In this document: in pieces, positions 11,869-43,524 of the stretch
How the letters are laid out: the number at the start of each line of letters is the position of its first letter
Position numbering within the stretch: the first letter of the stretch is position 1
DNA from: Candidatus Woesearchaeota archaeon
GTDB lineage: Archaea > Nanobdellota > Nanobdellia > Woesearchaeales > SM23-78
DNA: 64,000 nt
Direction of reading: 5' to 3'
Assembly (NCBI GenBank): GCA_016932315.1
Contig: JAFGDD010000002.1
Location: 62,001 to 126,000, forward strand
Notes under the pieces: model-generated
What the model saw: only the letters and a program-made list of their open reading frames with translations
Databases searched by the model: none
Told to the model about the DNA's origin: nothing
Position numbers and translations under genes: made by a program

Positions 11869-12153
11869 AAAAATCCGCCTTGGCCGCTCGCTCAGCAAAT
11901 TTTTAGAAGGCGTTGCCACAAAAAGCGCCAATAATGCGAGCATACTTAAAAGACAGAATCTATCAATGACGGGGGGTTGGGCCCTTCGGGCGTGTCATTA
12001 CTCAAAAAAAATATTCTTAATGCGAGCCGGCGCAAAAGCCGAGCGAATGCGAGGCTTGTGGCAACGCAAAAGAAGAAAATTTGTGCCTTGCTGCCGAGCT
12101 TACGGCTCTACATCAGTCTCGCTGGCCCTTGGCCCAGGCAGCGGATTTTTTTT
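11869..12153. repeat. Nested intergenic inverted-repeat element 3
   Basis: Three inverted repeats are nested. The outer ends (AAAAATCCGCCTTGGCC and GGCCCAGGCAGCGGATTTTT) and the CAAATTTTTAGA / GAAGAAAATTTGTGCC segments match the elements at 21386 and 37635. Where those have a short tip, this copy holds an insert bounded by GCGTTGCCACAA and TTGTGGCAACGC, and inside that lies AATGAC/GTCATT around a core variant (GGGGGG-TTG-GGCCC-TTC-GGGC, about 11971-11991). It lies between divergent genes. Two short frames on the plus strand inside it are not genes. Confidence 0.8.
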
Positions 12154-40995: not shown

Positions 40996-41736
40996 TTATT
41001 CGGATATTAGGCTTAATGGAAGTTTTCTTCCAAATTTCTTTTGAAATTCTTCTTCCATGCTTTCCTTTTGCTCTTCAAATGCAAGGGCTTTTACGCAACC
41101 CCTTACATATGTTCCTTTGATGATGCGTCCTTTTTTTTCTTCCTCTTCAAAGAAGTAATTGTTTATTATTAGCAAGTCATTGCTTCTCCAATAGTTTACA
41201 ATCTGTTTTGCCAGCGCACTGTTCTCTTCTGCTAATGGACCTCCTCTTATGCTTGCTTTTGCATAGAAGCTGCGGAAATCGCTGCCATCCACGCTCCATC
41301 TGAGAATTATGTTGACATCAGATAATCTTGCATCGCCTGTTTTTTGCATGACATGTAATTTTTTTATCTCAGAGTATTGGTAAGTTAGGGTTTGGCAAGA
41401 TGCTTGTTGTCCTGTTTCGAATCGAATATCATAGCCTTCTTCTTTGAATGAAAAGTTTGAGTGTAAAATATTATATTCTGATTGTATGATGAAATCCAGT
41501 TTGTTCTGCTTTGCTGTCAGCTCCTGTAGCGTTCCCAAGTTAATATTTTTTTCTTTTAGTTGTGAGCTCACAAAGAAGGGGGTTAGGTGTTTGACAAATG
41601 TGGCTAGAAGTCTTGATTCATCCGGGCTTGCTGCTCCTATGCATACTAGTGGCTCTTCGAAAAGTTTTTTTTCTAGCTCTCTCTTACTCTTGTAGGCCAA
41701 TGCTTCAATTATTCTCTCTGTTACACCTACATTCAT
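40996..41736 (-). CDS. Protein of unknown function (246 aa)
   Basis: No domain is recognised. The protein is soluble mixed alpha/beta: MNVGVTERIIEALAYKSKRELEKKLFEEPLVCIGAASPDESRLLATFVKHL at the start, strands in the middle (YDIRFETGQQASCQTLTYQY, DVNIILRWSVDG), and a charged C-terminal helix (EQKESMEEEFQKKFGRKLPL). A minus-strand TATA-like TTATTTAAATC is about 25 bp before the start. It is convergent with pth2 and divergent from lysS. Confidence 0.65.
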   Translation of the reverse strand: MNVGVTERIIEALAYKSKRELEKKLFEEPLVCIGAASPDESRLLATFVKHLTPFFVSSQLKEKNINLGTLQELTAKQNKLDFIIQSEYNILHSNFSFKEEGYDIRFETGQQASCQTLTYQYSEIKKLHVMQKTGDARLSDVNIILRWSVDGSDFRSFYAKASIRGGPLAEENSALAKQIVNYWRSNDLLIINNYFFEEEEKKGRIIKGTYVRGCVKALAFEEQKESMEEEFQKKFGRKLPLSLISE

Positions 41737-41837
41737 AGATGTAGTTACTGTTGAGTGATTTAAATAATTTGCGTTATTCTAATGACTTAAGGATTCTGCC
41801 TTAATTCAGAATCAGCGTGGAAATATTAGATATTTTG

Positions 41838-41992
41838 GAGTTTGTCGCATTATTCGCTCCGTGCACAGCCGCCTGCTCTCAGCGCTGATTTTCCGCTCTT
41901 AATATTTGAAGAAAATTAGTTCCTTATGGCCTGCCTTTGCAGGCATTGCGCCGCGCTGCTCGCCTAAATGGCGGCTTTTATGCGACAAACTC
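41838..41992. mobile_element. MITE-like element with 13-bp inverted repeats and 9-bp direct repeats
   Basis: The ends GAGTTTGTCGCAT (41838-41850) and ATGCGACAAACTC (41980-41992) are a perfect inverted repeat. GATATTTTG stands directly outside on both sides (41829-41837 and 41993-42001), a perfect 9-bp direct repeat of the kind left by transposition. The inside has no ORF; TTTGAAGAAAATT and ...GTTCC near 41900 resemble the A2 elements at 21386 and 37635. It is inserted between divergent genes, just before lysS, and must have been moved by a transposase encoded elsewhere. Confidence 0.8.
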
Positions 41993-42039
41993 GATATTTT
42001 GATAAACTTTAAAAACATGCCGACGTTATTCAGGAGAAT

Positions 42040-43524
42040 ATGGATACAGAAACCAGAATATTGAATGAAAGGAAGCAAAAAGTAGATGATTTAAGGAAGG
42101 CAGGCATTAATCCTTATGCTTACAGGTTTGAGAAGACTGCTCTTGCCAGCGAGATAAAAAAGGTTTATGCAGGGCTAAGGCCAGAAGAGCATGATACTAT
42201 GCGCAACAAGGTGCGAGTGGCTGGCAGGCTTGTGGCTATTAGGATGATGGGCAAGGCTGCTTTCTGCCAGTTAGCAGATGATTCTGGCGAGATTCAGCTT
42301 TATTTCAGGCATGATGATGTTGGCAAGGAATCTTATGACTTGTTCAGGAAGCTTGATATCGGCGACATTATCGGAGTTGAAGGAAGCGTTTTCAAGACCA
42401 AGACAGGCGAGATTACAATTCATGTCAAGAGTTTTGAGCTTCTCACAAAATCAGTCAGGCCTCTGCCAGAGAAGTATCATGGATTAAAGGATTCTGAGCT
42501 TAGGTACAGGCAGCGCTACGTTGACTTGATTGTTAATCCTAATGTTAAGAACACTTTTTTGGTGCGCTCAAAGATAATCCAGGCAATAAGAGAGTTCCTT
42601 ACTAACCAAGGATTTGTTGAAGTTCAGACTCCTGTGTTGCAGCCTGTTTATGGAGGAGCAAGCGCAAAGCCTTTTGTAACTCATCATAATGCTCTTAATA
42701 TGCCGCTCTACATGAGAATATCTGATGAGCTCTACCTGAAGAGATTGATTGTCGGCGGATTTGAGAAAGTTTTTGAGTTCTGCACTGATTTTAGGAATGA
42801 AGGCATTGACACCAGGCATAATCCTGAGTTTACTCAGATGGAGACCATGGCTGCTTATGATGATTATACTGACAGCATGAAGCGGACAGAGGAGATGCTT
42901 GAGTACGTGGCCAGGAAGGTTCACGGGACAACAGAGATAGAGTTTGACGGAAAAAAGATAAGCATGAAAGCTCCTTTCAAGAGGCTTACCATGATTAATG
43001 CTGTCAAGGAAGCGACTGGCGTTGACTTTTCAAAAATAAAAGACATTGACGAGGCAAGAGAAGTGGCAAGAAAGCACAGAGTGGAGATCGATGATGATAT
43101 GAGCATAGGATTCATACTTGCAGAGCTATGCGGCGAGCTTGTCGAGCCAAAGATTGTTCAGCCAACATTCATAATGGATTACCCAAAAGACGTGAGCCCA
43201 TTAGCTAAGGAAATGAAAACCAACCCTGGCTTTACAGAAAGGTTTGAGCTAATAATTGCTGGCATGGAGCTAGGCAACATGTACTCTGAGCTTAATGATC
43301 CTGAGGAGCTGAGGAAGAACTGGCAGGCTCAGGAGAAAAGATTAAGCACAGGAGATGATACTGCGCAGAGGACTGATGAGGATTTCATAAAAGCAATGGA
43401 GTACGGCATGCCTCCGACTAGCGGGATAGGAATAGGAGTTGATAGATTGGCCATGCTATTAACGAATAATACTTCCATAAGGGAGGTTATATTCTTCCCT
43501 ACCATGAGGCCTGAGACCAAATGA
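42040..43524 (+). CDS. lysS: Lysyl-tRNA synthetase, class II
   Basis: The 494 residues have the N-terminal OB-fold (about 60-150: VRVAGRLVAIRMMGKAAFCQLADDSGEIQLYF) and the class II core. Motif 1 region: FLTNQGFVEVQTPVLQPVYGGASAKPF; motif 2: FEFCTDFRNEGIDTRHNPEFTQME; motif 3: GIGIGVDRLAMLLTN. Length and order are those of bacterial/eukaryotic-type LysRS. Many archaea use the unrelated class I enzyme, so this is a lineage marker. A TATA-like AACTTTAAAAAC lies about 30 bp before the ATG. It overlaps the next gene by four bases. Confidence 0.97.
   Translation: MDTETRILNERKQKVDDLRKAGINPYAYRFEKTALASEIKKVYAGLRPEEHDTMRNKVRVAGRLVAIRMMGKAAFCQLADDSGEIQLYFRHDDVGKESYDLFRKLDIGDIIGVEGSVFKTKTGEITIHVKSFELLTKSVRPLPEKYHGLKDSELRYRQRYVDLIVNPNVKNTFLVRSKIIQAIREFLTNQGFVEVQTPVLQPVYGGASAKPFVTHHNALNMPLYMRISDELYLKRLIVGGFEKVFEFCTDFRNEGIDTRHNPEFTQMETMAAYDDYTDSMKRTEEMLEYVARKVHGTTEIEFDGKKISMKAPFKRLTMINAVKEATGVDFSKIKDIDEAREVARKHRVEIDDDMSIGFILAELCGELVEPKIVQPTFIMDYPKDVSPLAKEMKTNPGFTERFELIIAGMELGNMYSELNDPEELRKNWQAQEKRLSTGDDTAQRTDEDFIKAMEYGMPPTSGIGIGVDRLAMLLTNNTSIREVIFFPTMRPETK

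Follow-up and report, generated by a model that had tools for sequence, protein, structure and literature searches.

A MITE of an IS5-like family upstream of lysS in a Woesearchaeota genome and its landing register at predicted core promoters

The element located immediately upstream of the lysyl-tRNA synthetase gene lysS in this Candidatus Woesearchaeota genome is a MITE, an ordinary kind of object whose landing rule is unusual and can be tested. It was studied in a 64,000-nucleotide stretch of the genome (referred to here as the window), and statistical analysis of 20 insertions with the same ends indicated that such elements insert just upstream of pre-existing core promoters, as predicted from sequence, the lysS promoter included. 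The explanation that best accounts for all of the observations, and that we regard as very probable, is a MITE of an IS5-like family that was mobilized by a transposase acting in trans, was directed to its landing site by a promoter, and carries a captured A2-like module.

The MITE is 155 bp long (41838-41992, forward strand), or 173 bp when both target-site duplications are included. Its termini are perfect 13-bp inverted repeats, GAGTTTGTCGCAT at 41838-41850 and the exact complement ATGCGACAAACTC at 41980-41992, and it is enclosed by perfect 9-bp direct repeats, GATATTTTG, at 41829-41837 and 41993-42001. The repeats claimed in a preliminary description of this DNA were thus exact to the base. 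A rough count with uniform bases, based on 64,000 starts, some 200 spacings, and 22 fixed bases, suggests that this perfect arrangement would arise by chance about once in a million. No open reading frame of at least 60 amino acids was found inside the 155-bp element.

As originally described, the element is intergenic, lying between divergent genes and next to the lysS promoter. The upstream gene, on the reverse strand (40996-41736), encodes 246 amino acids and has an orthologue (29% identity, E 1e-27) in the same place in a genome of the same genus, G005. The downstream gene (42040-43524, forward strand) is presumably lysS, coding for a class II lysyl-tRNA synthetase, a name given by recognition of the product rather than by a family search. 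The predicted lysS core promoter (42002-42015, forward strand) abuts the right duplication and comprises a BRE-like ATAAAC followed by the TATA box TTTAAAAA (42008-42015).

Intact copies of the element number only one in the window genome. The two exact copies of GAGTTTGTCGCAT in the whole assembly are the two ends of the lysS element, and there are three further matches with one mismatch; within the 64-kb window, no other GAGTTTGTCGCAT was found within two mismatches. A possible decayed right end, GGTGGCTTTTTATGCGATAAACTC, was seen elsewhere in the assembly (contig C14, 249023-249035), where the left end is absent.

A search of 144 relatives recovered a full-length homologue in G005, with 74% identity over 154 bp and boundaries that coincide with the inverted repeats. 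This homologue, the one intact copy in that genome, is located on a contig that matches JAFGRK010000032.1 (Candidatus Woesearchaeota), 61 bp upstream of a gene that we take to be purB-like rather than at lysS, and its flanks, CCTGAAAGC and TCTGAAAGC, form a duplication with eight of nine bases in agreement. The lysS locus of G005 has the same gene order as the window but lacks the element, which is also absent upstream of lysS in the genomes G001 to G004. The preliminary description had proposed transposition and had named presence of the element at the orthologous loci of relatives as the finding that would count against it. Instead, five relatives from the same genus have no element at lysS, the G005 homologue is at another locus, and 9-bp duplications accompany insertions at many loci. 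A clean single GATATTTTG was not apparent at the relatives' lysS loci, where the flanks are too diverged.

MITEs with the same ends were also found in genomes G053 and G186. The latter has three copies, one with the perfect duplication ATAAGAAAC, one (G186b) with a duplication matching at only six of nine positions, and one (G186c) that shows no clear duplication and no promoter. A scan of 84,980 genomes for MITEs with exact ends, which demanded exact 11-mers and may not have covered close relatives, returned the G005 copy and one match in a bacterial hydrolase-like gene that was attributed to chance. Single GAGTTTGTCGCA matches in other genomes were mostly in long open frames and were likewise set aside as chance. 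No element with these ends was found in viral contigs.

Terminal repeats that agree at 13 of 13 bp, a duplication that agrees at 9 of 9 bp, no transposase gene, the ends of an autonomous element, and homologues at other loci together identify the lysS element, on sequence grounds, as a genuine non-autonomous transposon, a MITE of an IS5-like family. A conserved intergenic hairpin, either an A2-type RNA or a terminator, with a 9-bp repeat on either side by coincidence would also have the strong fold and the A2-related core that were observed. However, such a hairpin would not explain why the perfect inverted repeats are common to the MITE and an insertion sequence, why 9-bp duplications are found at many different loci, or why the relatives' lysS loci lack the element, and we consider this alternative scarcely credible.

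The movement in trans that had been proposed for an element with no gene inside it was borne out by a transposase with the same ends in a related genome. The transposase that the preliminary description suggested looking for was found in G069, a genome of the same order, but none was detected in the window genome. G069 contains a complete autonomous element on one contig, 967 bp from end to end, with the ends GAGTTTGTCGCA. These 12-bp ends are identical in the MITE, in the G069 element, and in a collapsed element in G113, another genome of the same order. The single 298-codon reading frame of the G069 element codes for an IS5-like DDE transposase, which matched PF01609 with 36.9 bits (cut-off, 23) and in which D119, D193, and E248 are invariant among four relatives. 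Models for IS5 ranked best, with 41.9 and 24.4 bits, but these scores were below the cut-offs of 140. Because the score with the NCBIfam IS5 model NF033579 (41.9 bits versus 140) was below its cut-off, the transposase was assigned to a divergent IS5 branch, and its sequence suggests that the parent is IS5-like but not a named IS5 member. Like IS5-family insertion sequences, the parent has a PF01609 match, one open reading frame in about 970 bp, and a 9-bp duplication, the last of which presumably fits the IS903 group of IS5. We know of no promoter-register targeting among IS5 elements.

In G113, the 12-bp ends were found at 12 contig ends, as expected for a multi-copy element that collapsed in assembly, and the assembly lacks the body of the element. 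Pairing of the flanks gave five perfect 9-bp duplications in G113 (GCGAAAATC, CATTTTTCC, GTTTTTTCA, GACTATAGC, and GTGATGAGG), and with three insertions in G069 that have perfect 9-bp duplications the total was eight. No PF01609 transposase was found in the assemblies of the window genome, G005, G186, or G113, which are 91 to 99% complete; collapsed multi-copy elements are often lost from such assemblies. The parent was therefore inferred from other genomes. Since no transposase gene of the IS5-like parent family was found in its assembly, the window copy is probably immobile now unless the parent element is re-supplied. No relatives of the transposase were found in viral contigs or plasmids.

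The lysS element resembles other prokaryotic MITEs in being short, gene-free, and intergenic, with terminal inverted repeats and a target duplication, and in having nothing but its ends in common with an autonomous element. It differs from them in having one intact copy each in the window genome and G005 rather than many, in its fixed placement at promoters, and in its A2-like structured core. The accessible part of a review of MITEs describes insertions upstream of genes and MITEs that carry promoters, and mentions no register to the host TATA box (PMC10969869).

When the 20 insertions, which come from six genomes, were aligned, the common layout was the 9-bp duplication, nnAA, and a TATA box at positions 7 to 14. 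This register is the principal finding and had not been noticed in the preliminary description. The TATA box started 7 to 9 bp beyond the duplication in 14 insertions, against a background of 0.0028 per offset per flank. The BRE-like AA before the TATA box was evident as A at offset 3 in 16/20 and at offset 4 in 17/20. At lysS, the predicted TATA box starts at 42008, which is offset 7. The register was scored as TTTAWA or TATAWA at offsets 7 to 9, a motif and a window that were chosen after the sites had been viewed, so that an exact P value should not be relied upon, although the peak itself is large. In the null model each site was moved at random within its own flanks, by 5 to 100 bp in the first version and, in a stricter version restricted to nearby DNA, by 3 to 30 bp (or 3 to 9 bp the other way). 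Both versions gave the same answer, with means of 0.26 to 0.40 and a maximum of 4 in 200,000 trials, compared to the 14 observed. A canonical TATA box was absent from the 7-to-9 window in the remaining six insertions, of which four (G113g, G053, G069d, and G069f) had a weaker or slightly shifted box.

The distance to the gene was also constrained. Among the 15 promoter sides with an ATG-started open reading frame of at least 60 amino acids, the ATG was 46 to 51 nt from the edge of the element in 10, and 46 nt was the commonest distance. The lysS TATA box is kept in all five genus mates that lack the element, which indicates that the promoter came before the insertion. Of six elements whose transposases are related but whose ends differ, three had the same register, or one that was one base off, with TATA offsets of 7 (L111, G346), 9 (L119, contig C103 of G069), and 6 (L115, G166). 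The more distantly related elements L109, L110, and L113 were outside the register, and two G234 copies (L112 and L118) were excluded for having no recognizable ends.

One way to account for the register is survivorship, in which insertion is nearly random and copies persist only upstream of promoters because those within genes or between a promoter and its start codon are harmful. The insertions that were inspected lie either at the edge of a gene or between genes, which is the pattern expected under selection. However, selection against damage permits the whole upstream intergenic region, yet the TATA box starts pile up at 7 to 9, and shifted sites averaged 0.4 and never exceeded 4 where 14 were observed. 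Survivorship therefore appears quite improbable. We infer that the register results from insertion directed by the promoter and could not arise through selection by itself.

A second possibility is that the transposase simply favors an AT-rich or palindromic target that archaeal promoters happen to offer. A palindromic target preference has been reported for IS903, a member of the IS5 family. The A at offsets 3 and 4 and the T at offsets 7 to 9 might represent bases that are contacted, C or G tends to occur at the ends of the duplications, and at five sites between divergent genes both sides of the insertion have a TATA box in or close to register. Nevertheless, the pattern is absent from the sides of insertions that have no TATA box, so that the signal is confined to one side and oriented toward a gene, and the distances to the ATG are concentrated around 46 nt. 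A target preference of this type is unlikely, if distinctly easier to entertain than survivorship. Direct reading of asymmetric BRE/TATA DNA by the transposase is possible and is counted here as part of promoter-directed insertion.

In this explanation, a transposase supplied in trans cuts and joins at the GAGTTTGTCGCA ends and staggers its target cut by 9 bp, as the sequences of the family show. By the statistics, the staggered cut falls immediately beyond the predicted BRE, the TATA box beginning 7 to 9 bp past the duplication, which puts the element some 46 nt ahead of the start codon and leaves the core promoter intact. The promoter could direct the transposase through contact with TBP/TFB or through the transposase's own reading of BRE/TATA DNA. 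The A2-like hairpin module may have been acquired between the transposon ends, as its similarity to A2 elements suggests.

The yeast element Ty3 is targeted by way of TFIIIB, a complex that contains TBP and a factor related to TFB. It may be that an archaeal clade of IS5-like transposases docks on TBP/TFB at the promoter and inserts a set distance upstream of this complex, as a prokaryotic counterpart of Ty3 and TFIIIB that arose independently in a DDE insertion sequence, an idea based on analogy to which we give a little less than an even chance. Ty3 insertions fall within a narrow interval upstream of genes transcribed by Pol III (PMC8632968). The feature that the present family has in common with Ty3, by analogy only, is insertion at a fixed distance upstream of predicted core promoters. 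In contrast to the element described here, Ty3 is an unrelated eukaryotic retrotransposon with an integrase that is targeted to Pol III genes, and the role of TBP/TFB in the archaeal case is hypothetical.

No report of an archaeal insertion sequence with promoter-register targeting was found in the literature searched, which misses most subscription journals, and as far as could be found the fixed landing rule is new for archaeal insertion sequences. Landing just outside the core promoter would let a transposon avoid gene breakage in compact archaeal genomes. Each insertion would also pinpoint a promoter to the base, an advantage in Woesearchaeota, whose promoters are difficult to map. With a fixed register, the way in which promoters are found can be tested directly with purified components (transposase, TBP, and TFB).

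The middle of the element had been noted to resemble the A2 intergenic elements, and this resemblance held. The A2-like core (41867-41976, forward strand) lies between the inverted repeats and has its own outer stem, AGCCGCC/GGCGGCT, in both the window and G005 copies. Folding, the A2 profile, and the G005 homologue all delineate an inner hairpin, CTGATTTTC...GAAAATTAG, followed by TTCC (41884-41920, forward strand). With the A2 profile, a hidden Markov model of five A2 copies (model R1), the core scored 20.8 bits versus no more than 6.4 in 500 shuffles, and the G005 homologue scored 16.1 bits versus a maximum of 7.7 in 500 shuffles. The A2 covariance model gave 17.4 bits for the window MITE (E 0.03, a weak match) and 23.2 bits for the G005 homologue (E 0.0011). 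The fold of the MITE strand surpassed 200 of 200 shuffles (z of -3.5 as DNA and -3.9 as RNA), and no Rfam family was identified for the MITE, the best match being far below threshold.

Matches to the A2 model numbered 16 in the window genome, 8 in G005, 2 in G003, and 1 in G069, the weakest of which are uncertain. The MITEs of G186 and G053 had no match, and A2-like content is therefore claimed only for the copies in the window and in G005; nested stems in the remaining MITEs with these ends were predicted by folding alone. The A2 elements resemble the MITE in core profile and, more weakly by the covariance model, in nested hairpins, but differ from it in having stems such as AAGTCGCC/GGCGACTT at their ends, no GAGTTTGTCGCA ends, and no duplications on inspection. 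The suggested link between A2 elements and transposition thus stood insofar as a transposon carries an A2-like module, but did not extend to the A2 copies themselves, around which no duplications were seen by eye. Because of this, the simplest interpretation is that an A2-like module was captured by transposon ends, which would not show that A2 elements in general transpose.

The A2 consensus fold was derived from six copies. Among the A2 copies L124 to L150, outer stems and inner hairpins appeared by eye to vary between copies and genomes with complementarity kept, as in AAGTCGCC/GGCGACTT and AAATCATC/GATGATTT, and in GCAAATTTT/AAAATTTGT and GCCAGCTTTT/AAAAGCTGAGCC. At 11869-12151 in the window, the hairpin loop of an A2 copy is broken by an inverted-repeat segment, GCGTTGCCACAA/TTGTGGCAACGC (11910-12067), that has no clear duplication, and the A2 copy L149, on contig C28 of the same genome, is split at a comparable position by a distinct inverted-repeat segment. 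Another intergenic element, with GTACGTAATAAGT inverted-repeat ends, adjoins two of the MITEs in G186 (L182, 1405-1726; L180, 1330-1620), and its inner hairpin resembles that of the MITE.
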